A DNA stretch of 64,000 bases from a virus, in IMG/VR virus record IMGVR_UViG_3300030060_003348, positions 1-64,000 of that record; one strand, written 5' to 3'. Position 1 is the stretch's first letter. Each line of letters begins with the position of its first letter. The position numbers were made by a program, and so were the translations under genes. The notes below the pieces were generated by a model. The model was given only the letters and a program-made list of their open reading frames with translations. It had not been told where the DNA came from and ran no database searches. This document shows, piece by piece, positions 21,901-63,526 of the stretch.

Positions 21901-23210
21901 GCCTCTTTAAAAACCTGATTAACACCATCAACACCTTCCTTGCTAAGTTTACTACTGTCCATCATTTGTCGTTCACCTAGTTGTGCGGCAAGTGAAAAGT
22001 TTATTTTATCACCTTGTTTGTTATAATCTTGTATAAAATTATCTAACACACCTTTTTGCTCTCTAAAACCTTTTTCGCTAAATGGCTGTAGATCAACAAT
22101 GTAAGGCTCTGATCTCCACGGTACGTTTATTTTTACAGCGTTTCCAGTTCCATACTCTTCAACATTAATACCTGGAAAGTTTGATTCTATACCCTCTCTA
22201 ACTGTTGACTCGTTTTTATTAACCCAAGTTGTCGTATTTCTATAATCAAAATCATCGTCTTTGCCTAAAGCAAGAACTTTTGTTTGTTCTTCATCTGTCA
22301 AGCTACTTGCCCACCAAGAGTTTTGCTCTTTCCCTTTTCTTATAATTTCACTTGCAGTTTTAACATCGCTAAAAGGTTGTGGTGCATACAAAAAGTTTTC
22401 AACTTCTTCATCGCTAGGTTTTACACCACTCTTTATTTTTTGTTCTGGGCTTAATATGTTTTGCATCCTATTAGTAAACTTCTCACCCATTGGCTCACCT
22501 CTTTGTTCTTTTTGAACAACGCTAACACCACCTATAGGTTGTTTCCACCATTGACCATCTATAAATACAAATCTATTTTCGTTTTGTATGTAGGAACCAT
22601 CTGGTTCAGCGGTTAAACCCATGTCGTCTAAACTAGTAGGATTTTCTTTTTTTCTTTCTATTTCTTTCTTAGCGCTCAATGCTTTGTAGTAAGCCTCTCT
22701 ATTAAAAGCATCTTTACCAAAGTGACCAAATTCCTGACCTATACTTACATAAGCTGGGTTGGTTATTTTATCATCTTCTATTTTAGGATCAACTTCTATC
22801 CAGTTTTCAGAACCTTTCTTTTTAGTATAATATACAGGTTTATTATCATCTCCAACCCCAAACTTATATTCGTAACCCCCTTGCTCTATTACTTGGTCTG
22901 GCTGTATCTCTTGTGATTCCGAAGAACCACTTTCCGATTTTGAATCCGTATCTCCGGATACTATTTGAGGCTCTCCAGTCGTATCGGTCGTCTGAGAGCC
23001 TCCTGTCTTTCCCTCTTGTAAATCAGCCCAAACCTGCTCTGGTGTTTTCCAAGTTCCATCAGCGTTTTTGTGCTCACTGTTAGGGTCTTTTTCTTTTTCC
23101 ATTGTTGCCATTAAACTATTGTAATGCGCAGCAACTTTTCCAATGTTTTCTTGTGGTTGTCCATCATCGGCCATTCTTTTAAGAATGTCACCAAGTATTT
23201 CTCTATTCAT
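12996..23210 (-). CDS. Giant polyvalent internal virion protein, 3404 residues
   Basis: The largest gene, following two internal virion protein genes. The N-terminal 1-150 region is polar and low in complexity. A hydrophobic, Gly/Ala-rich stretch at about 866-902 and another near 970 could cross membranes. A zincin metallopeptidase motif, SHEIGHFIDD, lies near 1457 (H1458, E1459, H1462). A HAD-like phosphatase domain starts with AFDFDETLID (D2508, D2510) and continues with ILTARPAEA and VDDALPN. Residues about 2710-3330 look like a conserved large C-terminal domain of giant phage proteins (similar in style to LPD38 of polyvalent proteins). A K/E-rich helix follows, and the end has a Cys/His knuckle (CSARTRKGKGPRC, then CYAHQ). 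It is probably packaged and ejected with the genome to protect or prepare it. Domain calls are by motif. Confidence 0.85.
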   Translation of the reverse strand: MNREILGDILKRMADDGQPQENIGKVAAHYNSLMATMEKEKDPNSEHKNADGTWKTPEQVWADLQEGKTGGSQTTDTTGEPQIVSGDTDSKSESGSSESQEIQPDQVIEQGGYEYKFGVGDDNKPVYYTKKKGSENWIEVDPKIEDDKITNPAYVSIGQEFGHFGKDAFNREAYYKALSAKKEIERKKENPTSLDDMGLTAEPDGSYIQNENRFVFIDGQWWKQPIGGVSVVQKEQRGEPMGEKFTNRMQNILSPEQKIKSGVKPSDEEVENFLYAPQPFSDVKTASEIIRKGKEQNSWWASSLTDEEQTKVLALGKDDDFDYRNTTTWVNKNESTVREGIESNFPGINVEEYGTGNAVKINVPWRSEPYIVDLQPFSEKGFREQKGVLDNFIQDYNKQGDKINFSLAAQLGERQMMDSSKLSKEGVDGVNQVFKEAGLPYSVKQNLDDWDLLHMSYTVNTPDGEVVFTDANQMTKWFYDNLSPEEYDKIDDLSTSKRVEGINVRQAKIDDTLATISDDEITKSYWTSGRARKNVMFDLDNNPVFSQESKVLIKAHLEKPIQEEKMVPNVYATYEGAPPMVKGLVTVDGWEQKRYDNILKDMKGQISEEEYAELEKYVNSQKALSSERLNDEKNTIANRKGDLAYEVFVGHDENIDVRIGAKDIVNKTSKSIEREGQQLQAGYLKLVDQVNNDSAVLERRLQNISLNMKKDGCGVEIYGEGDNQTCVVTHPDPKKQKYYQEKLEGLLEQSRTLKSTAENAGVEYQTKIDQWREKHLDETEDNDKLKALVNKEFDGGKIVWQDFFDGFRSFGYNIPAAFGNDWAVEQSQNFNDAKSAFQTKLTMDEAREFDQVGFTSWRTFNQQAGNMIIATASSFVVPGGAVLGISGATATTASLYGLSSAGGKRSSLEKRNEMADKAKLDLKELEKHYKDGNISYKEYKKQAIALNETISMGGLTSSQINWASNLAGVTEAGVMLVAGTAVNAMKFKGLMTGAFTSNAGDQMVRGIGGRLLNFTAGAGGMVGSELVEEFAALGFDKLGDAFILGDDVWEDLGTEAKETFYSTIISSGPMAVTGNAYSNIIAHVANKDVRNTWFNEVKPELAKIDNAINNLQGDPGSKKFQADLKALQDAKLEQIRKMAKLNQEVEMDALMLGPDAVQEIIVSNKNLQGLYAEAGVVAGDSEAVIEQKIDKHVSGLDMSEKRDFKTKLKIAKDSIAKQKGSFDYGNDKTAHTVEYNNDGSVKSEGVVHKLFGPEGVAMAEKLIAKDPKFLELSAKDKAIAVNEALKEKRDTKEVNKLKKDTKMKESVERSIYTDNEGNGITKAEWLLLNNRKRVPSDLKKAEDALYNRVGQYANARKGEALVLAQQGMVSAASMLQDQSLKGLEINEANGLDDLKQKVYKAVDDGFITEEKADEIIQGINQGKVKAAILGNKYITTEINATQKAVAQGNLLAGTAISHEIGHFIDDTAMSESERESYAGYLNEYVTENMPSIHQDVIDRNSKFTDDSRYIPDLPFENQTPEAKDEYTKSVQDELRQNKNIKYLNQIKKQDQTGFMNRMRGIKGGDFKINNKNDAAAWMGSYLTGFEKGEVGLLQQRKLKAAEQDADRTKEGYRTSSDLQGKLEQRAVDNDGMPRVPTKADAEAMALDMLTFAPDGKLADTVLDSELANEIGGIVETITKKLYDPIVPDARNGVTRNEFKEAAVIKAWELISKEYKTDGMKLDGYVSFLLNERSKDIASELGIQSITDKGGMGIAVKIEDAKGVESDLTAEDAFSNEAESITNPELPLTENLDVTSQDNQNIVDQILIDIGVKLPAVDQEISKNKFTTPLISALKKAFGEKNGVIHKAILNTIGKTKAEVEAFLTNPKNRLSILRSAPTSWLAKNLPKTVQKSVGGTRVKNDDGTTTFTPNWTSDWQGKKIDRWNAADVGPYRGNTSGPQVMRRHPAADTRVSNAEMLSEFAKGETMTDMRRNGLDKLALMIGQEYGLETFKNDLNNDGPMSEIFKGRQDLFDRILAENYVEEIGRQMQRGDAKFSYEGETPSNDLVGDAIQEDLNNMLKDIVQQVPQGGIKENKELDHLLQGYDPHLVNAFKATGLYNMFGKTKGYIYLTKNSNWGDEYSAYKNDYIENASSTFKNGDHRQQLNRGVLGMVKRLPGQALDAIGGYTFFGLNNPRILDGAKEKRSTGKPGEFYSTRQAIDNKIAKAKNDPKLSWMKDVQLLNSKYGLMKEIQDVLNLDIPAEEKRAKIRALQPKIDAANNANKKMLKYLVKELAALVEEDPSFSTAAALIYQMAGNNVNGFRALTDLSMVKVVDGSQAPYLTKTGKPTTTKTDNVNRNHPDFERAFELSNGDLRKTGELLNSKGEHIDPSAPLQNRIFEQTLQLASKLRGVNDVDARNQILLEHDNEMDLLLATFDQALGPIIDSDTQDNRLGKTSQLGYARNYVINDQVKNYVDLKSGEQASGLIDAKTSMMVQSLAQSTRLDLKISDKAKQNVRTSQGESRGMSAFDFDETLIDGGENKIIATKDGESVTISSADWPILGPRYAAEGFDFDFSDFINVKGGVEGPLMQKFRNRIKKYGIENNYILTARPAEAAPAIQAWLKQQGIEMPLENITGLGNSTGEAKAQWMLGKFAEGYNDMYFVDDALPNVEAVQNVIDQLDIKGKAAQVRLSQADPSVEFNGILEDVFGVGKEKVFSEAKGKQRGKGKGMFRIFIPPSAEDFKGLLYNFLGKGKQGEGHLAFFKRTLIDPFAKAQRQVDKAQQALTNDYRTVKKKHKPFHNKLTKTLPGTEFTYDQGVRILLWDRAGYEIPGLSETDKNRVIAAIKKHPDALAYANDLSMISKQENGYSKPGEFWVTETIGSDLSSMVQKIGREEFLEPFKENRRQVFGEWQGKKLVGPNMNKIEALFGVRFREALTDMLWRMENGSNRNFGSNRLVNSFANWINNSVGAIMFFNARSAVLQTLSTVNFINFGDNNIFKAAKAFANQPQFWKDFAMLFNSDMLKQRRAGLKTDINQNELAAVARKHKGNPKAILQHLLRLGFLPTQIADSFAISLGGASFYRNRVDALIKKGMTRAEAEQQAFIDFQEKAEETQQSSRPDLISQQQASALGRFILAFQNTPMQYARLTKKAALDLINRRGSDRQNISKILYYGAVQNMIFSSLQQAMFKYMFDDEEDEERQRTSTMRVGNSMLDGFLRGTGVYGAIASTLKNMIMRFIEEDKRKGNADYARVLIEGLNLSPPIGSKSRKLYSGLTTYKFKKDEMYEMDKLTIDNPMYQTIGNTVSAITNFPLDRIVNKTNNIKQAMNQNNEAWQRIALMMGWNTWDLGVQNEGVQASTERIRKVKELERKKKREAKRLEEKKQKEKERKEREAREVQCSARTRKGKGPRCKNRTENKNGKCYAHQ

Positions 23211-26092: not shown

Positions 26093-29000
26093 CTAATCTG
26101 TTGTTATTGTTAAAAAGTTACCAGTTTTAATAGTTAAGTTACCACCAGTGCTACCAAACTTCGCTAAACTTATTTTACCTGTAAGATTAACTCTAGTATT
26201 AGATATTTTTGTTGCTGTTAAATCTGATATTACCTCAAAACCATTTCTAAATGTTAGTGTAGAACCTTGTGATAAGTTTGCTGTTGTTGCTTTGCTTAGT
26301 GTTATAGTTCTTGCGTTTACATTAGTTACAGTTGTACTAGGCGCAATACCATCACCGTGAACAGTCATACCAGTAGCTATACCATCAATATTTGCAAGAT
26401 CCATTAATATTGTTGTAGAACCAGAGGTAGTATCTATAGAAATACCGTGAACATAATCACCACCTATAATATCTTGAATGTCTGGTTGTCTTGCTACAGT
26501 AAACGATTTACCAGAAGTACACTGTAACTCAAGGTGTATTTGTTGTCTTATAGCGTTTTTAGGTGTGCTGTTTCTTTTGCCTATAAAAGCATTACTAATA
26601 ACGTTACTACCGGAGAACATACTCATATCGGTTATCATAGTAGCTGTTATACTAGATGCAAGATTAGTTTGCGATGTTATATCGTAGGTACTACTAGCCG
26701 TTGGAAATGCTGCTGATAAGCCCAAACCATCACCACCCAAATCAACGCCATACAAGTTGTATGTTAATAAGGTTGCAGAAGCGCTGGCATCTAGTGTTAA
26801 ATCTATATCGGTATTACCATTAACACATGCTATTGTATTAACAACGGGCGTTTCTGATGTAGCCCAAGTGCTTGTCCAAACTAAATCACCTTCTTGCGTA
26901 GAACTAGAAAGTGTACAGTAAGTGTGATTACCCTCGCCACTTGTCGGTTTTTTAATAACTAAACCAACGTTTCCAGCTGCAGAAGAAGATATGTTTAAAG
27001 TTACCGTATTGCCAGATGTTAAGTGCTGTGGGCTAGCACTGAACAGATTTGCCAAAGTTGGTGGTATTGTTGTTAATATCTCTCTAGCTAAATAGTTTAA
27101 TCTTACATCATGCAGGTGTGCACAAAAACCACCCTCACCAGCAGGTGGATCACCAGCTTCCCAACCAACACCCGTAGGTGGAGTATAAAATATTTTTACA
27201 ACTGTTTGATATATTTTTGTTGTGTTACCAGATGATGTGTAATAAGTGTTGTCGTAACTAAAACTATAAGAACCAGTCCAAGCAGAGCTTGCTAAATGTG
27301 GAAACCAAGAGGCTTCACAACCAGTTGTTGGACCACTACCTACCTCTGTTAAATAGTAGCCAGAATCAGCCGTTACAGTATATCTAGCTATTTCTGTAGT
27401 TTGACCCTCATTAGCCGAGCCAGAATGTTTTATAGTAGTCATTGGGTCTGGCAAGTAATTAACATCAGCTGTTTCTGTAAAATTAGCTAAATCTACATGT
27501 GCTATAGTAACTCTATCGTTACCACTAGTTACAGTGCCGCTAGGTATTTCAGAATAACTAACTCTCACACAAGCATCTCTAGCCACAACACCAGGAGGGT
27601 TTGAAGTAACTGAAGAATCTACATCGCATTTTAAAACCTTATTACCAGCAGCCGGCATTGTATAGTTTTGCCAAAATATTTCACATTTAACCCTGTTTGC
27701 TGGGTCGTTAGGTATACCAGGAGTTTCGTTAAAAGCAGCGTCTATAAACACATTAGAAAATTCAACTTTAATTATATCAGTATCCGCGTTCATGCTACCA
27801 CCTTGTGTGTATATATATTTTGTTGCGTTACCAGATCCAGATGTTGTAGCTGTACCACCAGGACAACTATAATCTTTAGCAGATAAACTAAGACCACTGT
27901 AGTTCTGCACCCAAGCACTACCATTCCATTGATACTCATTTGTTATATAACTTGCATAAGAACCAGCTAAAACAGTAGCGCCACCCACAGCGGTCAGCGG
28001 CGTTTTAAATAACACTTTCCAATTTGGATTATCTGCAACGCCCGAATCCCAAGAATTATGATTAGGAGAAGCGTTTCCATTACCAGTATCATTTGTGTGA
28101 GTACCTTGTATATATATTTTATAAGTCACTCCAGGAGGTGGACCAGTTACAGTAGAGTCATCAAAACCACCTAAACCTTGAACAGAAAACTCTCTTTCAT
28201 CTAAGTTTGCAAGCTCTGTAGTTTTACCTTTAACAGTGCTAAAGTATTTACCTTCTTTATTTTTAAACTCTAACAAGCCTGTTTCTTGTAGATTTGTTGT
28301 TATGTCTTCAATATACCAACCAGTTTTATTCCAAAGGTTATAGTATTCAGAGTCATTTAAATTATTAAGAGCTTGGCTAGCAGCGTTCGTTGTGTTTACT
28401 TGAGTAAAAGAAGTTACCGCCGCCGCGCTACCTTCGTAATTTATTGTTCCAAAACTTTTAACAGAACCAGGTTGATCGTTAAATAGTAACGTAACATCGG
28501 AATTGTACTGTGTTCCGTAGAAATTATTTCTAGTAGAATTAGTATGATGTTGCCATAAGTTTCCTTTATTCCATGTGTAAAACTCATTATTTAAACTAAT
28601 ACCTTGCTCAGGTAAAAAATCTTTAAAACTAACCCAACCTTTAGATTTTTGACTATATGAAAGTGTTACACCTGTTGGTCTAAATTGCTGTTGCGCTGCT
28701 TTTTTCAAAAGAGATATACTGTATTCTTTTTTCTTTTCATCAAACACTCCAACGACAGAGTCTAAGTCCTTCATGTTATCGTTAAAATAATCTTTCATTC
28801 CCATGTCGGATATAGAAACTATTTGATCTCCTTTCAATGTTAACACATTGCCTCTCATAACATCAGCCCAGTAAAAACCATCTGGATCTGGAGTTAAAGA
28901 CTCTGGGTTAGTTGATATACCATATTCACCAGCAAGTGGAACAGCTTGGCCTAAAACATTATTGGTAGACGTTACGTTAGAATTACCATCAGCATTAAAT

Positions 29001-32000
29001 AAAGCATCTTTGTTTGTTAGTATTTTTAAAACTTTATCTTCACAAAAAGCTAAAGTGTTTGTGTTTCTAGCAACCATTTTTTGTATAGTACCATAACCAG
29101 GATTTAAGTCTTTTGTTATTGGCTCCGCTTGTATAAACTGATTAAGATTGTTTACGCCACTAGTTGAGTTAAATATACCTGACCATATAAAACCACTACT
29201 TCTATGCTCTTCAGCATAAGGCTCAGATAAAGTCGTGGATGCTTTTACACCATTGTCTATTGTTTTAGCGTTAAAATCATCACGTATTCTATCTGATTCA
29301 ACACCATTACCAAAAGAATAGCAGTTAAACCAACCTAAAACAGTAGGGTTGTGATGAGGCGCCGCATCTGCTTTTGAAACAAAAGTACCTAAATTAATAG
29401 CATTATCACCAGTAGTAAAGTATATGTAAGGTTGACCAGACGCAGCGGCTGTACCACCTGGTTGGTTAGATATTAAGCAGACTCTAGAGCCGTCGTATCT
29501 AGTAAAGTAAGACCAGTGATCATGAGGAAAAGAAGTCGCTAAATTAGGGGAAAGCGTTATTTTACTAACGTGTTTATGTGGAGAATATGAGTTAACAGCC
29601 ATAACCTTGTATTCAGTACCCTGCCAAAACATAGTAGAGCCAAGAGGTAATAACAACTCGTTTTCACTGTGGTCAGGATTTATAGGTATAGCTCCAGAAG
29701 CTTCGTAATAAATATCTAGGCCTACATCTTCTTTTGGTTCTGTTTCCCATATAGCTGGATTATTAGTTAAAAAAGCACCTGCACCACCATCTTCACTTGA
29801 AAATATTTGAGGTTCTAAAAACTCTATTGTTATTCTAGCTGGGTGATTACCACCGCCGGGTTGTGGCCCTAAACCATAAGAGTGACCCGTGCCTAAAGCA
29901 GAGTAGTTAATAGGGTTGTAATGTGTATACGAAGTAAATGGACCACCACCAAACGAACTAGAATATCTAGGTGCCGCGACTAATTGATTAGCAGTGTTTA
30001 ATTCCAAACCAGTATCACTAGTTATAGGGTACCAGTTATGATAGTGACCAATAGGAGCTGTTATAGTTGTTCCAGCCGCATTTGTAACTCCATTTGCTGC
30101 AACAATAGCCCCATCATATCTATCACCATCTACTAACATAATTGGATCGCCATCTGGGTCTGGGTTAGGCTTGCTCATTGGAGCGTGTTCGTTTGAATCA
30201 AAAACGTGTAAAGGTCCACTACCAAACATTTTGTCAACCTTAATTCTCATACTCCACCTGTGATTATCAAAATCATTTAGATTACTGTGCCAATTCCAAT
30301 GCGGGTCGTCAGAACCGCCGATTAAACAACCACCACCACCATTGTTAACTTCACTTTCCCAATTACCACTACCATCTTTTCTTGTTCTTGTGAATAAATT
30401 AGCCCCCTCACCATCAAAAAGACTACTTCTTAACCTACCCTGAACACCATCAATTCTAAATACAACTTGTGCCGGATCCTCTTTAAATCTAAAAAGTGTA
30501 CCTATTGTTCTAAGTCTATTATAAGGAACTTGAAATCTATTACCCTGCTCATTAGGACTTCCGTCAAAGTTAGCATAAGACAAGTCTATATAGCCATGCC
30601 CATCAATACCAGAACTAATACCACCATCATCAGCCTGTGCGTTTTGAGGGAAACTTGCTATAGCATTATATATACCACCTCTATTTATATGTTTTGAAGA
30701 AATAGAGTTACCACTACCAGCTGGGCCACAATCTTGATCATCAATAAACCATCTAGACCTTGTTGATCTCTGATCACCATCATGCCAGTTTCTCCATTTA
30801 GTCCAATACGTTTCATTAGAACCATCGTGGTCTGACATATAACCAATGTTCATTATATCTGTAACAATATAATCTATTCTTTCTGAAAAAGAAGATAATA
30901 ATTCTTTTTCCAGTGTTAAATCTTTTAATATTTTAACAAAAAACCTACCATCAAACTCCGGTTTATCTTCAAATTTATTTTCAAACACCTCTAACCTCAT
31001 TTGAGTTGTTCTATTCAAAATAGATATTGGAGAACATTCATCTCCTAAAGGCTCTGAAAGTGTTATTCTAACTCCACCAGAATTATTAGCTATACCAGTA
31101 ATATCGTAAACCTCACTAGTTAAAACCGTGCTAGCATCAACACCACCAATTCTTAATTGTAAGTTATCTTTTAAATCTGGCTCGACAACACCACCAAAGC
31201 TGTTTAAAAATTGCTGTTGGTCTAATATAATAAAAGTTCTTCCTTCTTCAGGTAAGCCAGTTGCTTCAAACTCAACAGTTGACATACCATAGGACTTTCT
31301 TTTTCTTTTAATAAATAAAGGCGCCTCGTTACTTATAGCAATAACCTTATATCTTGCAGACTCTGTAACAGGATTATTATTATCGTGTTGTTTTTTAAGT
31401 ATTAAATAAGTTTCTTGATCTACTTTATTTCTTTCCGCAGAAGGAAAACTAATCCAAACATTACCATCTTCAGCATCGTAAAAACGATCCATAGCTAGGT
31501 TGTAATATTCGTTAGAAGTTTCTTTAATATAATACTTCATGTATCTAGCCCACGGCGGCGGATCACCTCCTCCGTTAGATTTTTCTAATATTTTTACTTT
31601 TAATCTATTTTGTTTAAAAGAATCTTTTTTTGGAACAGTTATAGACCCACCTTCAGCAGGAACCATAACTGGACTTTCTCTACCATAATCATCTATCCAA
31701 ACAACTCCAACCTGATAAGTTCTCATTGATTTTAAAGACTGTAAGGGTATTTCGTAGTCTTCTATAGAGCTATCTGGAATATTGTAAGCCGAGTGCTGAA
31801 CGTTTAGTTTTAAAGAATCATCTATGTTGTAATTCTGCTTGTAGTTACCATAAACCAACCTGTTAGCAGTTATTTCTTGAGCCTTAGCACATTTAGGAAC
31901 ATTGTCATAAGGTCTCAACAATTGGTTAGAAGGAACGACAGCGTGTATCATTTCGCTATCTATTTGAAACTCACCTCTATTTCTCCAATTGCTTTTCATG

Positions 32001-33715
32001 TCAGGCCAAAGAGGATGTCCATCTTTTCTTGACAAAGTTTTCATCGTGTAAACAGTAGTAGACTGTGTTTCTTTGTATAGTAGGTCTATTTCTACAACGT
32101 CATCAGGAACTAAACTATGTTCGTGAAAATAATTTTTAAGAGTTATGTATCTAACTCTATTTGTCATACCTAGGTTATAACCTTTTTTAGGTAAGTAATC
32201 AAAATCACCAGGTAAAAAGGCTATTTCAGAAAACGGCGCAAAAGCAGAGTATTCACCATCGGTATATCTGTATCTGTATGAAAACCTAGGAAACTTATAC
32301 TCAAACAAAGGTTTTGTTTGTTCTAATCTGCTTAACCAGTTTGTCGCTGTTGTAGGCGCTTCAAAATCTATCGACTGTATTTCCGCTGTATAAGGTCCCG
32401 ACGAAGCATTTGGGTTAGAGTTGTTAACTGGTCCACTTAGTATTTTTAATCTAGCCTCAACCTTATCTAAGGCAAAGTTATCTTGTGCTAAGGTTAAATC
32501 ACTAGTTAACATTATAGTGTCACCAGCTCTATAATCAACAGGGGTTTGTAAATTAAAAGTTACTTGATCACCAACTTCTAAATGTTCTGGCGGACTAGCA
32601 CCATCTCCAAGGTTTAAACTTGTTGTTGTTGCAAAAACTGGATTTTCATCACCGTTAGTATCTTTTCTTTTATTTTCTGTTGTAGACATTTCTACTTCTA
32701 AAGGAAATAAAGGGTTTCTTTTTATAACAGTAATATCAGCTTCTTCTACAAAAACCGGTTTTTCCTCGTTAGAGTCCGTGGCAACTTTAAAAGCGTTAGA
32801 CACAGACTCATGTTTTCTACATAATCTAGTATGATAATCATCATTGTTTTCACTTGCGGGCTGAGGGTTGTTTGTCGCGTTTGGCTGGTTATTCCAAAGG
32901 TTAGTGTCTATCCAGCCGTCTAAAGGGTCGTTTCCACATGTACCAGCAAAAGATCTTTCTATATTTATTTTTCTAGGCTCATGATAATTATCAGTCCAGA
33001 ATATCATTCCATCTAAATGATTTATAGCTGTTATTTTTCTATGATGAACAAACTTTAAAACTCTATTAGCAAAAAAAGTCATTGTATCTCCAGCTGTACA
33101 GTAAAAATTAGATCCGTTATTTAACAAGCCACTACTACCACTGTGGTATATTCTATAATTACTTCCTTGTTTTTTAATGTTAGTAACCGTAACACCCCAA
33201 TTATTATTAATACCAACTTGGTTTTGACCAGCTCCATTTGGATCGTTTAAAACACCTTTTAGTTCCATACCTATTCTTATACCTAAAGAATAATAAGTAG
33301 GAGCGGCTATTTCAATAAAATCAGAACTAGCTTGATCAGTAGCTATAGTATGTGTTACAGAATATATATCAACAAATATATAACGGGTTTCTTCTGTTAT
33401 AGTATTGTATTCTATTATATAATCTTTTTTTCTTAAGGGCTCATAATTTTTTGTACCACCACCAGCAATAAAATAATATATTAAATCTTTTTCGGGCAAA
33501 GGTAAAACACCTACGCAAGTAGAATAATCTTCGTTAACAACATTTGCAGTTTTATTAGTGTTTCCTAACAATGTTTGTAAAGAACCAACATTAGAACCAT
33601 CAGATGTAGCTATTTGTATATTTCTAGCGTCACGATACTGGCCGGAAGGTACAACCCTTTCGTCCATATCTTTGTTCATTTTCGCTTGTGAAAAATCTCT
33701 TTTTAATTCAGCCAT
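26093..33715 (-). CDS. Giant tail stabilisation protein, crAss-like/P22 gp10-like
   Basis: A 2540-residue tail protein. The N-terminus (MNKDMDERVVPSGQYRDARN, with SDGSNVGSLQ following) matches the start of tail stabilisation proteins in crAss-like phages, distantly comparable to P22 gp10. Residues about 1530-1800 keep the other family hallmarks (NNVLGQAVPLAGEYGIS, KGWVSFKDFLPEQG, NNFYGTQYNSDVTLLFND). In between and after are large beta-rich insertions, which explain the unusual length. It probably plugs or caps the tail tube and may carry receptor or glycan-binding modules. It follows the tail-tube gene closely. Confidence 0.82.
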   Translation of the reverse strand: MAELKRDFSQAKMNKDMDERVVPSGQYRDARNIQIATSDGSNVGSLQTLLGNTNKTANVVNEDYSTCVGVLPLPEKDLIYYFIAGGGTKNYEPLRKKDYIIEYNTITEETRYIFVDIYSVTHTIATDQASSDFIEIAAPTYYSLGIRIGMELKGVLNDPNGAGQNQVGINNNWGVTVTNIKKQGSNYRIYHSGSSGLLNNGSNFYCTAGDTMTFFANRVLKFVHHRKITAINHLDGMIFWTDNYHEPRKINIERSFAGTCGNDPLDGWIDTNLWNNQPNATNNPQPASENNDDYHTRLCRKHESVSNAFKVATDSNEEKPVFVEEADITVIKRNPLFPLEVEMSTTENKRKDTNGDENPVFATTTSLNLGDGASPPEHLEVGDQVTFNLQTPVDYRAGDTIMLTSDLTLAQDNFALDKVEARLKILSGPVNNSNPNASSGPYTAEIQSIDFEAPTTATNWLSRLEQTKPLFEYKFPRFSYRYRYTDGEYSAFAPFSEIAFLPGDFDYLPKKGYNLGMTNRVRYITLKNYFHEHSLVPDDVVEIDLLYKETQSTTVYTMKTLSRKDGHPLWPDMKSNWRNRGEFQIDSEMIHAVVPSNQLLRPYDNVPKCAKAQEITANRLVYGNYKQNYNIDDSLKLNVQHSAYNIPDSSIEDYEIPLQSLKSMRTYQVGVVWIDDYGRESPVMVPAEGGSITVPKKDSFKQNRLKVKILEKSNGGGDPPPWARYMKYYIKETSNEYYNLAMDRFYDAEDGNVWISFPSAERNKVDQETYLILKKQHDNNNPVTESARYKVIAISNEAPLFIKRKRKSYGMSTVEFEATGLPEEGRTFIILDQQQFLNSFGGVVEPDLKDNLQLRIGGVDASTVLTSEVYDITGIANNSGGVRITLSEPLGDECSPISILNRTTQMRLEVFENKFEDKPEFDGRFFVKILKDLTLEKELLSSFSERIDYIVTDIMNIGYMSDHDGSNETYWTKWRNWHDGDQRSTRSRWFIDDQDCGPAGSGNSISSKHINRGGIYNAIASFPQNAQADDGGISSGIDGHGYIDLSYANFDGSPNEQGNRFQVPYNRLRTIGTLFRFKEDPAQVVFRIDGVQGRLRSSLFDGEGANLFTRTRKDGSGNWESEVNNGGGGCLIGGSDDPHWNWHSNLNDFDNHRWSMRIKVDKMFGSGPLHVFDSNEHAPMSKPNPDPDGDPIMLVDGDRYDGAIVAANGVTNAAGTTITAPIGHYHNWYPITSDTGLELNTANQLVAAPRYSSSFGGGPFTSYTHYNPINYSALGTGHSYGLGPQPGGGNHPARITIEFLEPQIFSSEDGGAGAFLTNNPAIWETEPKEDVGLDIYYEASGAIPINPDHSENELLLPLGSTMFWQGTEYKVMAVNSYSPHKHVSKITLSPNLATSFPHDHWSYFTRYDGSRVCLISNQPGGTAAASGQPYIYFTTGDNAINLGTFVSKADAAPHHNPTVLGWFNCYSFGNGVESDRIRDDFNAKTIDNGVKASTTLSEPYAEEHRSSGFIWSGIFNSTSGVNNLNQFIQAEPITKDLNPGYGTIQKMVARNTNTLAFCEDKVLKILTNKDALFNADGNSNVTSTNNVLGQAVPLAGEYGISTNPESLTPDPDGFYWADVMRGNVLTLKGDQIVSISDMGMKDYFNDNMKDLDSVVGVFDEKKKEYSISLLKKAAQQQFRPTGVTLSYSQKSKGWVSFKDFLPEQGISLNNEFYTWNKGNLWQHHTNSTRNNFYGTQYNSDVTLLFNDQPGSVKSFGTINYEGSAAAVTSFTQVNTTNAASQALNNLNDSEYYNLWNKTGWYIEDITTNLQETGLLEFKNKEGKYFSTVKGKTTELANLDEREFSVQGLGGFDDSTVTGPPPGVTYKIYIQGTHTNDTGNGNASPNHNSWDSGVADNPNWKVLFKTPLTAVGGATVLAGSYASYITNEYQWNGSAWVQNYSGLSLSAKDYSCPGGTATTSGSGNATKYIYTQGGSMNADTDIIKVEFSNVFIDAAFNETPGIPNDPANRVKCEIFWQNYTMPAAGNKVLKCDVDSSVTSNPPGVVARDACVRVSYSEIPSGTVTSGNDRVTIAHVDLANFTETADVNYLPDPMTTIKHSGSANEGQTTEIARYTVTADSGYYLTEVGSGPTTGCEASWFPHLASSAWTGSYSFSYDNTYYTSSGNTTKIYQTVVKIFYTPPTGVGWEAGDPPAGEGGFCAHLHDVRLNYLAREILTTIPPTLANLFSASPQHLTSGNTVTLNISSSAAGNVGLVIKKPTSGEGNHTYCTLSSSTQEGDLVWTSTWATSETPVVNTIACVNGNTDIDLTLDASASATLLTYNLYGVDLGGDGLGLSAAFPTASSTYDITSQTNLASSITATMITDMSMFSGSNVISNAFIGKRNSTPKNAIRQQIHLELQCTSGKSFTVARQPDIQDIIGGDYVHGISIDTTSGSTTILMDLANIDGIATGMTVHGDGIAPSTTVTNVNARTITLSKATTANLSQGSTLTFRNGFEVISDLTATKISNTRVNLTGKISLAKFGSTGGNLTIKTGNFLTITTD

Positions 33716-59341: not shown

Positions 59342-59473
59342 AGCTATTATTTTTATTAGTATACTAATTCTTATTATCACTCATAAAATAGTGTTTTTAC
59401 AAAGTGTGACACTAGCTAGTTACTATATTCCTATTAATAGGCTAATGTCATAAAAAAAGTTATCGTAAATATT

Positions 59474-59552: not shown

Positions 59553-59558
59553 GTATTA

Positions 59559-59581
59559 GTATTATCACATTTTTTTCGTAT
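59559..59581 (-). promoter_or_regulatory. Repeated promoter element, minus strand copy
   Basis: On the minus strand it reads ATACGA (59581-59576), nine bases, GATAATA (59566-59560). It is the only copy I found facing the late block and keeps the exact nine-base spacer of the seven plus-strand copies. It therefore probably starts the long late transcript. Confidence 0.7.
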
Positions 59582-59610
59582 TAGTTTTGTATTTAATTTT
59601 TACAATGTAG

Positions 59611-59632
59611 ATACGACTTACAATTGATAATA
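59611..59632 (+). promoter_or_regulatory. Repeated promoter element, copy 1
   Basis: ATACGA (59611-59616), nine bases, GATAATA (59626-59632). It lies 31 bases before the ATG at 59664 and is divergent to the minus-strand copy at 59559-59581, with 29 bases between them. Confidence 0.7.
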
Positions 59633-59663
59633 TTAATGTAAATAAACTCAAAAGATATTTAAC

Positions 59664-59735
59664 ATGAAACTCAAAATTGATAACTACATTGCAGAAATAA
59701 TTATAATAATATTAATAATAATAATTGCAAGTTAA
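59664..59735 (+). CDS. Possible 23-residue membrane peptide
   Basis: MKLKIDNYIAE followed by an almost pure Ile/Leu helix and a short end. It begins 31 bases after promoter copy 1 and ends inside promoter copy 2, the same layout as other mini-genes here. Small single-span peptides can act on membrane proteins or lysis timing. Support is position and composition only. Confidence 0.4.
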   Translation: MKLKIDNYIAEIIIIILIIIIAS

Positions 59736-59760
59736 ATACGACTCAATAATGATAATATAA
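59736..59760 (+). promoter_or_regulatory. Repeated promoter element, copy 2
   Basis: ATACGA (59736-59741), nine bases, GATAATATAA (59751-59760). It overlaps the stop codon of the 59664-59735 frame and precedes the frame that starts at 59784. Confidence 0.75.
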
Positions 59761-59783
59761 ATGTAAATAAAATAAATAAAGTT

Positions 59784-59882
59784 ATGCGCACAGTGAAGTC
59801 GCGGGCAATAGCACCAACTAACAATATAAGTAATAAACAATGTGTATACTTTTACAAACAAAATACGAGATATAAAAGATAA
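59784..59882 (+). CDS. Small basic protein, 32 residues
   Basis: MRTVKSRAIAPTNNISNKQC and onward, cationic, ending in RYKR. It starts 23 bases after promoter copy 2. Its TAA stop (59880-59882) is made by the GATAATA of promoter copy 3. Function unknown. The frame is short, so the evidence is its placement between two promoter copies. Confidence 0.4.
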   Translation: MRTVKSRAIAPTNNISNKQCVYFYKQNTRYKR

Positions 59883-59887
59883 TATAA
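59863..59887 (+). promoter_or_regulatory. Repeated promoter element, copy 3
   Basis: ATACGA (59863-59868), nine bases, GATAATATAA (59878-59887). It lies 36 bases before the ATG at 59924 and overlaps the end of the 59784-59882 frame. Confidence 0.75.
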
Positions 59888-59923
59888 ATAACTAAAATAA
59901 ATAACTAATTAAAAATTGAAATT

Positions 59924-60145
59924 ATGAAATTAAATTCTAAAAGATTTGTGATAAGAAAGTCACTAGTAGGTAAAAATGCAGTAGTAACAGTAAACTTCAA
60001 AAATGGTAAAACTGCAAAGTATAATCATGACAAAGTATATGAAATTATGAAGTCAAAATTGGAAACTTTACCATGTTGGACAAAGTATAAAAGTTATACT
60101 GCAAGTAATAACGTGCCAGTAGTAGCCAGAGAAGCTTGCGAGTAG
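59924..60145 (+). CDS. Small basic protein, 73 residues
   Basis: MKLNSKRFVIRKSLVGKNAV, then VTVNFKNGKTAKYNHDKVYE. It is basic with strand-like segments followed by a helix, so it may be a small nucleic-acid or protein binder. It begins behind promoter copy 3. No family is recognised. Confidence 0.6.
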   Translation: MKLNSKRFVIRKSLVGKNAVVTVNFKNGKTAKYNHDKVYEIMKSKLETLPCWTKYKSYTASNNVPVVAREACE

Positions 60146-60333
60146 TACCAAAATTTGCTCGATAAATACCGCTCGTGAAGTGCTGATTAGCGAGTGGTGG
60201 GCAGAGACGTAGTTGAGTAACATTTAGCGTCTTATAAACAATGCGAATGACAACAGTGTGAATGGTTAATAGTAGTTCGATTCTGCTCCACACTACAATT
60301 AAAATAAATGTTTAACTTATAAAATATATAACT
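60146..60333 (+). other. Gene-free stretch with a tRNA T-arm-like hairpin
   Basis: About 190 bases with no convincing frame, higher in GC than its surroundings. It contains a 7-pair stem CCGCTCG/CGAGTGG (about 60169-60198) and, at 60255-60294, AGTGTG...CACACT closing over AGTAG-TTCGATT-CTGCT. The loop TTCGATT with a five-pair stem matches the T arm of tRNA. A full cloverleaf could not be drawn. Confidence 0.45.
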
Positions 60334-60501
60334 ATGAAAGTAACTTGTAAAAAAACTGGAAAAGATATGACTAGTAAAGTAATTAAAGCTTTAGAAAAAT
60401 CAATAACAAAAGGTAAATACACTATCAAAACTGTGTATTCAAGTGACCCGCACTTAAATGATAATATGTGTGAAAGCTTTTATAAAAATTCTAACAAATG
60501 A
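60334..60501 (+). CDS. Small hypothetical protein, 55 residues
   Basis: MKVTCKKTGKDMTSKVIKAL, then KSITKGKYTIKTVYSSDPHL and a C-terminal Cys. A compact alpha/beta look. Its stop overlaps the start of the next gene (ATGA at 60498-60501), which supports both. The leader is AT-rich. Function unknown. Confidence 0.6.
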   Translation: MKVTCKKTGKDMTSKVIKALEKSITKGKYTIKTVYSSDPHLNDNMCESFYKNSNK

Positions 60502-60629
60502 GAATAATAATAAGAAAAGTAGCGGGAGTGTGGATAGTTCAGTGTAGTGAATCACAACAAATATACTTCACGCATAAAAATATAATGAAGTGTTTTCAAT
60601 ACAAATTAAATACGAAATTAGTAAGATAA
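60498..60629 (+). CDS. Small hypothetical protein, 43 residues
   Basis: MRIIIRKVAGVWIVQCSESQ, then QIYFTHKNIMKCFQYKLNTK. Strand-rich, basic, with two Cys. It starts in an ATGA overlap with the upstream gene, and its TAA stop lies within promoter copy 4 (GATAATA). Both facts favour a genuine gene. Confidence 0.55.
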   Translation: MRIIIRKVAGVWIVQCSESQQIYFTHKNIMKCFQYKLNTKLVR

Positions 60630-60634
60630 TATAA
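60610..60634 (+). promoter_or_regulatory. Repeated promoter element, copy 4
   Basis: ATACGA (60610-60615), nine bases, GATAATATAA (60625-60634), only 13 bases before the ATG at 60648. Confidence 0.75.
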
Positions 60635-60647
60635 TAAATTAAATAAT

Positions 60648-60899
60648 ATGTCAAAAAGAAATTACAAACTAACTATAGTTGATTATGGCTACAAGGTTGA
60701 AGCGTGGGATAGATATGGTAAATACGTATGTGTATACGAGAAAACTCGTGAAGATGCTAGTAAGTTTATACTCGACTGGTGGGAAAAAGCAGATGAGAAT
60801 AAGAAATCAGATGAGTTAATGGCAAAAGCTATTATGCAGTGTATACAAATAGACAAAGAAAATGGCATAGTGTCAGGCAATAGAGATGGATTAGATTAA
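60648..60899 (+). CDS. Hypothetical protein, 83 residues
   Basis: MSKRNYKLTIVDYGYKVEAW, then DRYGKYVCVYEKTREDASKF and a long C-terminal helix. It looks like a small alpha/beta protein with beta strands first. It follows promoter copy 4 directly. No family is recognised. Confidence 0.65.
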   Translation: MSKRNYKLTIVDYGYKVEAWDRYGKYVCVYEKTREDASKFILDWWEKADENKKSDELMAKAIMQCIQIDKENGIVSGNRDGLD

Positions 60900-60909
60900 A
60901 ATAAATAAT

Positions 60910-61248
60910 ATGAAGAAAGTAAAACTATGTGTAGCAGCACTTCTGCTAGGTGGGTTTAGTTATGGCCAAAGCACCTCAAATACTACAAATAATAACTACA
61001 TGTATAGCAATTTATACGAAGAAACTAACGAGCAGTTTAAAGCTGTAGAGTTTATGGTTGAAGATGTGATCGACGCTATTCGGATGGATATGTTCTATGG
61101 TCACTTAGAAAGACAACGTGGCGAATATTATATCAAAATGATATTAAGTGTTAAGTCAACTAATAGAGACATAATGGCGAATGTATTTACTCACAGAAGC
61201 AAAACATTAGGTGAAATGCAACTAATGCTAGACAAGAAATTGAAGTGA
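60910..61248 (+). CDS. Exported hypothetical protein with signal peptide
   Basis: A 112-residue protein with MKKVKLCVAALLLGGFSYGQ, a flavobacterial signal peptide ending in YGQ. The mature part is helical and charged (AVEFMVEDVIDAIRMDMFYG). No anchor is seen, so it is probably periplasmic. It would be one of several envelope-targeted products in this genome. The stop overlaps the next start (GTGA). Confidence 0.65.
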   Translation: MKKVKLCVAALLLGGFSYGQSTSNTTNNNYMYSNLYEETNEQFKAVEFMVEDVIDAIRMDMFYGHLERQRGEYYIKMILSVKSTNRDIMANVFTHRSKTLGEMQLMLDKKLK

Positions 61249-61391
61249 AACTAACAAACAAACATAAAAGAGGAGTCAAAAGGCGAGTAGATCTCGAGCA
61301 AGGTGTGAGACCACCAGGCTCCTCTGTGTTTGTTAACAAAAAGAAATATACAAGAAAACACAAACATAAAGAATTATGGAGAAAAGAGTAA
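61245..61391 (+). CDS. Small basic protein, 48 residues, GTG start
   Basis: A GTG at 61245 overlaps the stop of the exported protein (GTGA). The product is MKLTNKHKRGVKRRVDLEQG, then VRPPGSSVFVNKKKYTRKHK and a short end. The composition is clearly protein-like and cationic. The same DNA can form an inverted repeat (61257-61334), noted separately. Confidence 0.55.
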   Translation: MKLTNKHKRGVKRRVDLEQGVRPPGSSVFVNKKKYTRKHKHKELWRKE

Positions 61392-61393
61392 CA

Positions 61394-61594
61394 ATGAAGT
61401 ATATAACTGTACTAGATTTTGAAATAGGTCAAGTATTCCAGTATAATATAGAAGGAAGAGTAACAATATTAAAAGGTAGCACTGTTTGGTATCCAGAATC
61501 AGAGTCGTGTGAAGAGTTTTTAAGCGGAGTTGGTCATAATTTAAGCAATTGTGAGTGGATGGTGCATAGTGATAATGAAATAATTACAAAATAA
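61394..61594 (+). CDS. Hypothetical protein, 66 residues
   Basis: MKYITVLDFEIGQVFQYNIE, then GRVTILKGSTVWYPESESCE and FLSGVGHNLSNCEWMVHSD. The ATG at 61394 is three bases after the preceding stop and is preferred to one at 61376, which lies within the upstream gene. It has the look of a small beta domain. No family is recognised. Confidence 0.6.
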   Translation: MKYITVLDFEIGQVFQYNIEGRVTILKGSTVWYPESESCEEFLSGVGHNLSNCEWMVHSDNEIITK

Positions 61595-61619
61595 ATACGA
61601 TTACTATTGGATAATATAT
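61595..61619 (+). promoter_or_regulatory. Repeated promoter element, copy 5
   Basis: ATACGA (61595-61600), nine bases, GATAATATAT (61610-61619). It is 13 bases from the ATG at 61633 and directly follows the stop codon of the preceding gene (61592-61594). Confidence 0.75.
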
Positions 61620-61632
61620 ACAAATAACGAAT

Positions 61633-61845
61633 ATGAATTGTGTAAAATGTAAAAATATAATACCTAGCGGCCGAGTTCAACTTGGTTACAAAGTGTGCGT
61701 AGACTGCTCCACGACCGAGCGATACGGTTGCGCACCACTAATCAACCACAAGACCGGTAATTCCATACAGATTATGTCAAGCAGTGACGCTGCACGCATA
61801 GCTAAGTTGACTCGTCGCAAAGGTTATGGTACAATGTTGGGATAA
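61633..61845 (+). CDS. Small zinc-ribbon-like protein, 70 residues
   Basis: MNCVKCKNIIPSGRVQLGYK, then VCVDCSTTERYGCAPLINHK. Two CxxC pairs (C3-C6 and C22-C25) separated by 15 residues form a zinc ribbon or DksA/TraR-like finger. The C-terminal half is basic (ARIAKLTRRKGYG). It may bind nucleic acid or RNA polymerase. Its GC content is higher than that of its neighbours. Confidence 0.65.
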   Translation: MNCVKCKNIIPSGRVQLGYKVCVDCSTTERYGCAPLINHKTGNSIQIMSSSDAARIAKLTRRKGYGTMLG

Positions 61846-61856
61846 TTACAATATAA

Positions 61857-61882
61857 ATACGAACATAGTAGGATAATATAAA
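61857..61882 (+). promoter_or_regulatory. Repeated promoter element, copy 6
   Basis: ATACGA (61857-61862), nine bases, GATAATATAAA (61872-61882). The ATG at 61900 is 17 bases on. Confidence 0.75.
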
Positions 61883-61899
61883 CAAATAAATAAATAAAT

Positions 61900-62085
61900 A
61901 TGCAGAAAATTAAACACTTAAGAAATGACTATGTGCAACTCGGCAACTTAATCTACAAACCATACACTGTATGTGATTTACCTGCCAACTTCGGTTGTAT
62001 AGAGTTTCAAGAAAAAGAAGGAATTAGCGAATGGTTTAACTACAGAGGATATACTTATCTCTTTGACAAAGTAGCAAAAATATGA
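61900..62085 (+). CDS. Hypothetical protein, 61 residues
   Basis: MQKIKHLRNDYVQLGNLIYK, then PYTVCDLPANFGCIEFQEKE and WFNYRGYTYLFDKVAKI. It looks like a small beta-rich protein. The stop overlaps the next start (ATGA at 62082-62085). It follows promoter copy 6. Confidence 0.6.
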   Translation: MQKIKHLRNDYVQLGNLIYKPYTVCDLPANFGCIEFQEKEGISEWFNYRGYTYLFDKVAKI

Positions 62086-62672
62086 ATATAAAAGAATATA
62101 ATAGTGACCCAAGATACTGGGCAGTATGGGAAAAGATGCAACTACTTGGCATACAAGATGTTAGCACGGATAGACAAGAAAAAAATGGTACAATAGTTTG
62201 GCGATTACCAATCAAAAATAACTGGCCAAGACAAAATGCTAGTTTTATTGAAGTGGCTAGTTTTAGCACTGGATATGTAAGAAACCAGAATAGTGGTTAC
62301 AGTAACTATCAACTCAACAAAAGATGTATGGGCGAACCAGAATACTTCAAGAGTTATAAGTGGGTTGATGGTGAGCAAGTATGGGACGGTAAATATAGAA
62401 AGTTTGAAACTCGTAAGTGTGTACTAATACCAATAGAAATAGAAAGATTAGAGTATTTATTAAAGTATTGTATTAAAAACTATTATATTAAACATGCTAA
62501 TCAAGTACCGAATGGTGAGTTTTATCCAAAGTGGATGTATGAAAGTGACAATTTAACGCAAGATAAGTATAATGAGGCGTACAACAACGGTTACAGTGAT
62601 GGAGTCACGGAAACTCTTAACAATCAAAAAGTAACAGTAATAGTAAATGAACAAAAATATAAGATAATATAA
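62082..62672 (+). CDS. Hypothetical protein, 196 residues
   Basis: MNIKEYNSDPRYWAVWEKMQ at the start, KNGTIVWRLPIKNNWPRQNA in the middle and NNGYSDGVTETLNNQKVTVI at the end. Aromatic-rich alpha/beta protein of a family I do not recognise. It starts within an ATGA overlap and lies one base before the next gene, so it shares their operon. Confidence 0.65.
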   Translation: MNIKEYNSDPRYWAVWEKMQLLGIQDVSTDRQEKNGTIVWRLPIKNNWPRQNASFIEVASFSTGYVRNQNSGYSNYQLNKRCMGEPEYFKSYKWVDGEQVWDGKYRKFETRKCVLIPIEIERLEYLLKYCIKNYYIKHANQVPNGEFYPKWMYESDNLTQDKYNEAYNNGYSDGVTETLNNQKVTVIVNEQKYKII

Positions 62673-62673
62673 T

Positions 62674-62859
62674 ATGGAAAGAAAAATATTTTGGAGTGAT
62701 AAGGCTTCACCAAATGGAAAATATCGTGGTGGTATATACTTCAGGTCTTTTGACTTAAACAAATTCATGAAACTAGTAGAAAAAGAAGAAGGAGAAGTAG
62801 TTGGTTTAGAATTTGAAGACAATAATGTAAATATAATAATAAAAGAATATGATAAATAG
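62674..62859 (+). CDS. Hypothetical protein, 61 residues
   Basis: MERKIFWSDKASPNGKYRGG, then IYFRSFDLNKFMKLVEKEEG and VVGLEFEDNNVNIIIKEYDK. The strand-helix-strand order suggests a small folded domain. It overlaps the next gene by 11 bases. Function unknown. Confidence 0.6.
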   Translation: MERKIFWSDKASPNGKYRGGIYFRSFDLNKFMKLVEKEEGEVVGLEFEDNNVNIIIKEYDK

Positions 62860-63019
62860 ATTATTTGGAAAGAGATTAGGACAAGATGAACAACTATTAA
62901 AAAATATAGAAGAATATGAGCAAAAAGAGAAAATTAAACAGCAAGAATCCGAAATACTGGGACAAAAGCCAGGTAACCGAAAAGCCAATACTGAAAAAAG
63001 TATTGATGAAAGAGGTTAA
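62849..63019 (+). CDS. Helical protein, 56 residues, overlapping another frame
   Basis: MINRLFGKRLGQDEQLLKNI, then EEYEQKEKIKQQESEILGQK. A charged helix with coiled-coil character. It overlaps the upstream gene by 11 bases, which supports the start. The second half (from 62916) is covered by a different frame that is also protein-like. One of the two may be spurious, or both may be made. Confidence 0.45.
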   Translation: MINRLFGKRLGQDEQLLKNIEEYEQKEKIKQQESEILGQKPGNRKANTEKSIDERG

Positions 63020-63053
63020 AGGCTGTAAAGTATACGGAGTATGGTACAAATAA
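62916..63053 (+). CDS. Basic protein, 45 residues, overlapping frame
   Basis: MSKKRKLNSKNPKYWDKSQV, then TEKPILKKVLMKEVKGCKVY and GVWYK. The composition (Trp, Tyr, Lys, Pro) and the end VYGVWYK are strongly protein-like, arguably more than the overlapping 62849-63019 frame. It shares 104 bases with that gene in another frame. Confidence 0.45.
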   Translation: MSKKRKLNSKNPKYWDKSQVTEKPILKKVLMKEVKGCKVYGVWYK

Positions 63054-63475
63054 CGAGGTGAGGGTGGTAGCGCGTGAGATGTGTTGGTATGAGGTTCTTA
63101 GTCCTCCCTTCTTACTCACTTGGCAGAACGGCAGGATAAAGCAAAAATACGAGAGTAAGCTAATGCACTTATGTGATTATGGGCGCTCGTATAGAACCAC
63201 ACCTGCCCGACTTCGTTTTATAATACTTAGTAAGGGTCTCCTAGGCTCGCCCCGAAAAGTATGACACTAGCTCCTTAAGCGATAGCAAGGAAGAACAAAG
63301 ATCGAGCACGAAGAGGTTTGGGATAGACGTTTCACGAAATCTCCAATAGAATAAAACTTTGTGTGTCGAGCCTTGTGCTGTTGGGAGTAGGAAACTAGGT
63401 ACTGGAGATACAGGAAACACGGTTGCGCTCGTGCTGAAAACAATGAGGTTCGATTCCTCACTAGTTACAAAACAA
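63054..63475 (+). other. Gene-free, structured 420-base stretch
   Basis: No convincing coding frame, and the GC content is clearly higher than that of neighbouring genes. Several helices can be drawn: AGGTGAG/CTCACTT (63056-63121), GGGC/GCCC (63181-63208), CCTT/AAGG (63273-63290), and AGCACGA (about 63305-63311) with TCGTGCT (63429-63435). Its 3' end carries a tRNA-like element (63392-63468). It may be a long non-coding RNA, a broken RNA gene, or a replication site. I see no known RNA family. Confidence 0.5.
63392..63468 (+). ncRNA. tRNA-like element, degenerate cloverleaf
   Basis: Seventy-seven bases. An acceptor-like stem AACTAG (63393-63398) pairs with CTAGTT (63461-63466). A short D-like hairpin CTG-GAGATA-CAG (63402-63413) and an anticodon-like hairpin CACG/CGTG with an eight-base loop (63418-63433) follow. 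The T arm is perfect: TGAGG-TTCGATT-CCTCA (63444-63460). No CCA is encoded, the D loop lacks GG, and the anticodon loop has eight bases. It is therefore a decayed tRNA or a tRNA mimic, not a standard tRNA gene. Confidence 0.4.
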
Positions 63476-63500
63476 ATACGAATAAAGTAGGATAATATAA
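63476..63500 (+). promoter_or_regulatory. Repeated promoter element, copy 7
   Basis: ATACGA (63476-63481), nine bases, GATAATATAA (63491-63500). It lies 26 bases before the ATG at 63527 and just after the tRNA-like element. Confidence 0.75.
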
Positions 63501-63526
63501 ATGTAAAATCAATTAAATTAAATAGT

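Follow-up and report, generated by a model that had tools for sequence, protein, structure and literature searches.

The first 64,000 bases of the 69,817-base viral record IMGVR_UViG_3300030060_003348 (bases 1-64000, the window) contain a two-part motif, ATACGA-N9-GATAATA, that recurs ahead of a block of small genes. It appears that these repeats are the promoters of the small-gene block and that they are probably read by the host core RNA polymerase (RNAP) carrying a sigma factor that the phage itself encodes past the window end (67607-68374). Comparison of related sequences indicates that the motif set is shared by a large group of uncultured flavobacterial and aquatic phages that possess their own sigma factor. 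A first-pass annotation of the window had proposed a phage-specific promoter recognized by a phage polymerase, a phage sigma factor, or a modified host enzyme. The idea of a phage-specific promoter with a phage reader is supported by the presence of the sigma gene, by the co-occurrence of motif and sigma, and by their joint absence from sister phages. The choice among the three readers is narrowed to a sigma factor, by inference rather than by experiment.

A repeated motif with a fixed spacer

A scan of the window bore out the eight exact copies of ATACGA-N9-GATAATA listed in the first-pass annotation, coordinates included (Table 1). The nine-base spacer is indeed invariant. When all gaps from 0 to 30 bases between ATACGA and GATAATA were tested, the pair was found in this genome at a gap of 9 only (9 times), and an order-3 Markov model of the genome produced no exact match in 100 runs. 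Likewise, the pair occurred 217 times at a gap of 9 and at most 4 times at each other gap from 0 to 30 in 78 loci bearing the sigma gene. With up to two mismatches allowed, the window held 11 matches against 3.0 expected; therefore, the signal resides in the exact copies. A scan beyond the window end with one mismatch allowed, a check that the annotation itself had put forward, found an exact copy at 64799 and a one-mismatch copy at 65035. The latter is probably not a site because it lies within a gene and lacks TACAA.

The late block and the left replication block hold no exact copy, as had been noticed earlier. When the non-structural region was searched blindly for pairs of words separated by a gap, the ATACGA/GATAATA motif ranked at the top and an upstream TACA box was returned with it. 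In the late block, where late promoters were sought, no over-represented gapped pair forming a comparable extended motif was found. The plus-strand copies do lie ahead of an ATG, but the distance first given, 13-36 bases, has to be corrected: 16-39 bases separate the motif end from the start codon taken as used within the window, and 5 bases do so for the copy at 64799. The minus-strand copy has counterparts at the same divergent place in five other loci (L023, L032, L042, L072, and L075). Its leader showed no significant sign of being a structured RNA (fold z-score -1.21).

The full motif and the predicted start site

Both boxes of the original motif stand, but its length was underestimated: a TACAAA box ten bases upstream of ATACGA and the tAAATR following GATAATA had been missed. 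The full motif is TACAAA-N3-AATACGA-N9-GATAATATAAATR. In other words, it is TACAAA-N19-GATAATA with a further box inside the spacer. The consensus, drawn from the 9 exact copies here and 214 distinct sites in related loci, is TACAAA-N3-AATACGA-N8-g-GATAATAtAAATR. The outer boxes also keep their distance, with 188 occurrences of [C/T]ACAAA-N19-GATAATA at a gap of 19 and no more than 7 at any other gap.

Where would transcription start? The first A of ATACGA was counted as motif position 1, and the first ATG of an open reading frame (ORF) of at least 40 codons was taken as the start codon. Their numbers peak sharply at position 28, which holds the start codon in 44 of 270 sites, spread over 11 unrelated gene families; in only 9 sites does the start codon come earlier. 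In the 214-site consensus this position is occupied by a purine (A 0.60, G 0.38). Because an ATG cannot precede the start of its own mRNA, the sharp edge and the peak at 28 place initiation there. This implies that transcription would begin at motif position 28 and often yield leaderless mRNAs; the 5' leaders predicted for the plus-strand copies in this genome are 0-34 nt long. Leaderless mRNAs make up 5.5% of the mapped mRNAs in F. psychrophilum (PMC9723704).

The position-28 register puts GATAAT at exactly -12 to -7 (that is, TATAAT with a G at -12), TACAAA at -37 to -32, and ATACGA at -27 to -22. This -35/-10/+1 geometry looks like that of a sigma-type promoter and unlike the host TTTG/TAnnTTTG arrangement. 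The flavobacterial sigma-A box is TAnnTTTG at -12 to -5 (PMC9723704). The earlier statement that the motif does not resemble the Bacteroidetes primary promoter thus holds, given the position of GATAAT and the lack of enrichment of host-type TTG-N18-22-TAnnTTTG sites (13 against 11.7 expected). Host sigma-A is an unlikely reader because TAnnTTTG is dissimilar to GATAAT and host-type sites are not enriched. A literature search found no paper describing the ATACGA/GATAATA motif.

Could the repeats be something other than promoters, such as operators, replication or packaging signals, or the tail of a dispersed repeat? In favor of such a role, some copies lie near one another in the divergent region. 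However, the strand bias of the motif follows gene direction in 40 genomes with a reversed-pattern control near 0, and a start-codon peak at one position in 11 unrelated families, together with a purine at that position, is a promoter signature. Furthermore, the repeats are not a copied element because their spacers and flanks vary. A non-promoter role is therefore highly improbable.

A phage sigma factor that accompanies the motif

Looking outside the window for a polymerase or sigma gene, another check named in the first-pass annotation, revealed a sigma-70-family gene encoding 255 amino acids. The protein falls just under the Pfam cut-offs for region 2 (23.2 bits against 24.0) and region 4 (21.2 against 24.1), and it matches PHROG 351 at 5e-18 and Staphylococcus aureus SigA in the PDB at 8.5e-7. 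Its structure model (mean predicted local distance difference test score, pLDDT, 77.8) has sigma factors as its best fold matches; Foldseek returned 105 matches at E<=0.001, and among the matches listed all were sigma factors or sigma-RNAP complexes. At E 1e-5, a search of 50,697 named phage records gave no match to the sigma factor. The alignment with SigA sets F102, G109, and R112 opposite Y430, Q437, and T440 (E. coli numbering), of which we take Y430 to contact the A at -11 and Q437 and T440 to read -12. An arginine, R112, in place of T440 would suit the G at -12.

The sigma gene and the motif co-occur whichever of the two is used for the search. A search with the sigma factor alone found 80 viral loci at 62-98% identity, and these usually carry several motif copies on the strand of the sigma gene and upstream of it. 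Those without the motif mostly begin too near the sigma gene or have a variant motif. When 40 records were scanned from end to end, one or more motif matches with no more than one mismatch turned up in 36 of them, and the reversed pattern, used as the control, gave almost none. In the opposite direction, sigma is encoded in 32 of 37 contigs found by the motif alone and in all 27 of those that are at least 55 kb long, with one copy frameshifted.

Sister phages lack both partners. MW202828, a complete phage with a terminase 64% identical, its uncultured kin (54-65 kb), Elemovirus elemoA, and Cellulophaga phage phi46:3 contain no sigma gene and no motif array; phi46:3 has one isolated one-mismatch match, in a coding region. 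Local tblastn and hidden Markov model searches with positive controls found neither the sigma factor nor a credible homolog of its helix-turn-helix (HTH) neighbor, described below, in MW202828, Elemovirus, and phi46:3.

MW202828 (L090, L091) carries ~15 copies of a palindrome, TGTCGTTAACGACA, and an annotated repressor gene, which suggests a different regulatory scheme. Short motif-bearing contigs were also found in metagenome-assembled genomes labelled Aliivibrio, Ilumatobacteraceae, and others (L326, L327, L331, L333, L339, and L340), and the Aliivibrio and Ilumatobacteraceae assemblies also hold the phage sigma gene. These are probably misbinned flavophage contigs.

Promoter dialects

Lineages have their own promoter dialects, which change genome-wide on a nearly constant -35/-10 frame. 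ATACGA is lost in L012, L061, and L084; CACAAA is used by L012, L015, and L018; CACGGACTTA is used by L076 and L087 at an unchanged distance to GATAATA; and L021 has an 18-bp spacer throughout. The base at -13 behaves similarly: it differs between genomes but hardly varies inside many of them. Such concerted change suggests a trans-acting reader.

Single residues of the sigma factor, the HTH protein, and two unrelated control proteins were compared with the dialects. In the CACGGACTTA pair, sigma residues 57-59 are D-S-R in place of a nearly invariant S/T-Q-Q, and K134S is present as well; this is a single event in one clade. The HTH protein has no residue columns specific to the CACGGACTTA dialect. 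Its residue L139 tracks the presence of ACGA with a normalized mutual information (NMI) of 0.44; the best columns of sigma and of the control proteins score slightly lower. This is a hint only.

The HTH gene and an inverted-repeat element

The sigma gene has the HTH gene as its direct neighbor, and a homolog of the latter lies upstream of sigma in 77 of 78 loci. A fold search with the HTH protein returned no significant match. A 42-44-bp inverted repeat, TGACAWTAGCC..AGTAAYRGGCTARTGTCA, spans the HTH start codon in 67 of the 78 loci and stands ahead of the late block, on the minus strand, in 14. The sigma-bearing loci have no further matches to it, and the reversed control gave 0. The record studied here has exactly two copies, one at each of these places, and the element is absent from MW202828, Elemovirus, and phi46:3. 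It is likely an operator or promoter that controls the sigma operon and the late genes. A plausible arrangement is that the HTH protein would act through this element on the late block and on the sigma operon to which it belongs, and that sigma would drive the small-gene promoters.

These features bear on an alternative in which host RNAP with a host sigma factor (sigma-A or an extracytoplasmic function, ECF, factor) reads the motif with the help of a phage activator such as the HTH protein at ATACGA, in the manner of T4 MotA, and the phage sigma acts elsewhere. The ATACGA box is placed where an activator could sit, L139 tracks ACGA, and the HTH gene is a neighbor of the sigma gene and absent together with it. 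However, GATAAT is unlike TAnnTTTG and other reported flavobacterial sigma motifs, the 42-44-bp element, present where the HTH gene begins and at the late block, is a better candidate site for the HTH protein, and this protein offers no residue specific to the CACGGACTTA dialect. We consider this alternative unlikely.

The giant virion proteins

The main rival is an RNAP packaged in the virion, of the crAss-like or N4-like kind, which would be injected with the DNA and read the motif as an early promoter, leaving the sigma factor to serve late genes. It is the main rival because crAss-like phages use a virion RNAP for their early genes (PMC7886860); in crAss001 and phi14:2, this enzyme transcribes early genes at one genome end (PMC8375218, PMC10136315). 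The present phage shares a muzzle domain with crassviruses, the motif stands at the head of the non-structural block, and a 3404-amino-acid virion protein is present.

The search for such a polymerase argues the other way. The 3404-residue family has no conserved DxDxD (DFDxD) across 11 homologs, and the DPDGD of a second giant protein, of 2540 residues, sits in a non-conserved insert. Searches of both proteins against Pfam, PHROG, and the PDB and for conserved motifs found no RNAP. An N4-like T7-type polymerase domain was likewise sought in the giant virion protein, and Pfam, PHROG, and the PDB gave no match, although the first ~2400 residues of the protein are poorly conserved and divergent enough that a distant enzyme of this type could lie there. 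Furthermore, Elemovirus has an 11-kb virion-protein gene and no motif array, and the -35/-10/+1 geometry is sigma-like. A virion polymerase as the reader is decidedly unlikely.

The two giant proteins have features of their own. The 3404-residue protein (12996-23210, minus strand) belongs to a family with a conserved HExxH metalloprotease-like motif and a conserved C-terminal region that shows a HAD-like DFDDT..TARP..FADD pattern; outside these parts the sequence is extremely divergent. The 2540-residue protein (26093-33715, minus strand) is a crassvirus-type muzzle with a large variable insert, and the open-frame lengths of its relatives vary widely.

A model for reading the promoters

How would the phage sigma factor read these promoters? 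In the proposed model, the host core RNAP carrying the phage sigma would recognize the predicted promoters of the small-gene block. Sigma region 4 would contact the TACAAA box, and region 2 would melt and read GATAAT. Counting from the first A of ATACGA, transcription would then start 27 bases further downstream, at a purine that in some cases is the A of the start codon. The ATACGA box may provide lineage-specific discrimination; candidates for its reader are the sigma factor itself, the RNAP, and the adjacent HTH protein. Since the sigma factor has to be made first, the motif would best be classed as middle or delayed-early.

Several points weigh against this model. A conserved box within the -35/-10 spacer is not among the contacts that sigma factors usually make. 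Since the sigma gene stands downstream of the promoters it would need, its first expression would have to come from another promoter or from delivery with the virion. Five motif-bearing contigs of 49-54 kb, possibly fragments, are without the sigma gene. Inheritance of both by a single clade, rather than many independent events, may be the sole reason that sigma and motif occur together. In the CACGGACTTA lineage, the recognition helix of region 4.2 has hardly changed, and, that lineage aside, no residue of sigma follows the dialects more closely than residues of the unrelated control proteins do.

A further possibility, which we regard as tentative, is a two-protein system in which the sigma factor acts together with its constant HTH neighbor, the latter reading ATACGA. 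Such a system would have three read boxes (-35, spacer, and -10), dialects private to each lineage, and many starts on the A of the start codon. If true, it would amount to a sigma-promoter code of flavobacterial phages that rewrites host transcription independently of TAnnTTTG.

Features of the region

Table 1. Predicted promoters, regulatory genes, and inverted-repeat elements, in coordinates of the record; +1 denotes the predicted start site
Feature	Coordinates	Strand	Details
Predicted minus promoter copy facing the late block	59554..59591	-	TACAA 59591-59587; ATACGA-N9-GATAATA 59581-59560; +1 59554
Predicted promoter copy 1	59601..59638	+	motif 59611-59632; +1 59638; ahead of 23-aa hydrophobic micro-ORF from 59664
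Predicted promoter copy 2	59726..59763	+	motif 59736-59757; +1 59763; ahead of 32-codon micro-ORF from 59784
Predicted promoter copy 3	59853..59890	+	motif 59863-59884; +1 59890; ahead of ORF at 59924
Predicted promoter copy 4	60600..60637	+	motif 60610-60631; +1 60637; ahead of ORF at 60648
Predicted promoter copy 5	61585..61622	+	motif 61595-61616; +1 61622; ahead of ORF at 61633
Predicted promoter copy 6	61847..61884	+	motif 61857-61878; +1 61884; ahead of ORF at 61900
Predicted promoter copy 7	63466..63503	+	motif 63476-63497; +1 63503; ahead of ORF at 63527
Predicted promoter copy 8 (putatively leaderless)	64789-64826		beyond the window; exact motif at 64799
HTH gene	66881-67501		beyond the window
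Sigma gene	67607-68374		beyond the window
Inverted-repeat element, 44 bp	59407..59450	-	TGACATTAGCC..AGTAACTAGCTAGTGTCA; flanked by the minus promoter copy and the first late gene
Inverted-repeat element, second copy, 42 bp	66845-66886	+	beyond the window; across the HTH gene start

Motif copies ~118-131 nt apart, as at 59611-59884 here, recur in many relatives and enclose only micro-ORFs. These closely set copies may drive very small proteins or RNAs. Two GC-rich stretches in the same region (63058-63470 and 60140-60300) have no clear genes and end in sequences that resemble a tRNA T-arm (GAGGTTCGATTCCTC and GTAGTTCGATTCTGC). Rfam and ARAGORN gave no match in the window, these stretches included. 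Several relatives carry a tRNA gene in this block, and the stretches are possibly decayed or unusual tRNAs.

Significance and comparison with known systems

In the literature examined, the takeover of transcription by Bacteroidetes phages has been worked out for the virion RNAP of crAss-like phages. The present analysis points to a different solution in a large uncultured group of aquatic phages, namely a dedicated sigma factor and a promoter code that goes with it. Because the start sites are predicted to the single base, they can be tested directly, and the dialects form a natural series for following the joint change of a sigma factor and its promoters. A compact non-host promoter with its own sigma factor could also be used as a tool for orthogonal gene expression in flavobacteria.

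Like phi14:2 and crAss001, the crAss-like phages compared here, the present phage is a Bacteroidetes podophage with a related muzzle protein and early genes at one genome end. In contrast to them, it has a sigma gene, and no DxDxD virion RNAP was found in it.

Phage T4 uses phage-specific promoters based on a -10 box on the host RNAP, with MotA as a DNA-binding partner that reads an upstream box, and its gp55 late promoters consist of a -10 box only and need the sliding clamp. The promoters described here differ in having a -35-like box, and the sigma gene has an HTH gene as its constant neighbor.

The sigma factors of phage SPO1 redirect the host core RNAP to promoters in which a -35 and a -10 box stand at a fixed distance. 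A scheme of this kind is proposed here as well, but the SPO1 host is Gram-positive and the boxes differ, and no close relation between the SPO1 factors and the present one was seen. The SPO1 factors in question, gp28 and gp34, are named among the middle and late sigma factors of Bacillus phages (PMC9429907).

The podophages phiEco32 and 7-11 encode a divergent sigma factor and carry repeated copies of a short phage-specific promoter ahead of middle and late genes (PMC4331800). There, as here, the motif was found as a conserved intergenic sequence. However, the consensus in phiEco32 consists of just one TAATGTATA-type -10 element, whereas the present motif has -35, spacer, and -10 boxes at fixed spacing and would serve the small-gene block; an anti-sigma factor was not identified here. 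Thus, the kind of system is already known from phiEco32 and SPO1, and what is new is the box within the spacer, the promoter dialects, and the occurrence of such a system in flavobacterial phages.

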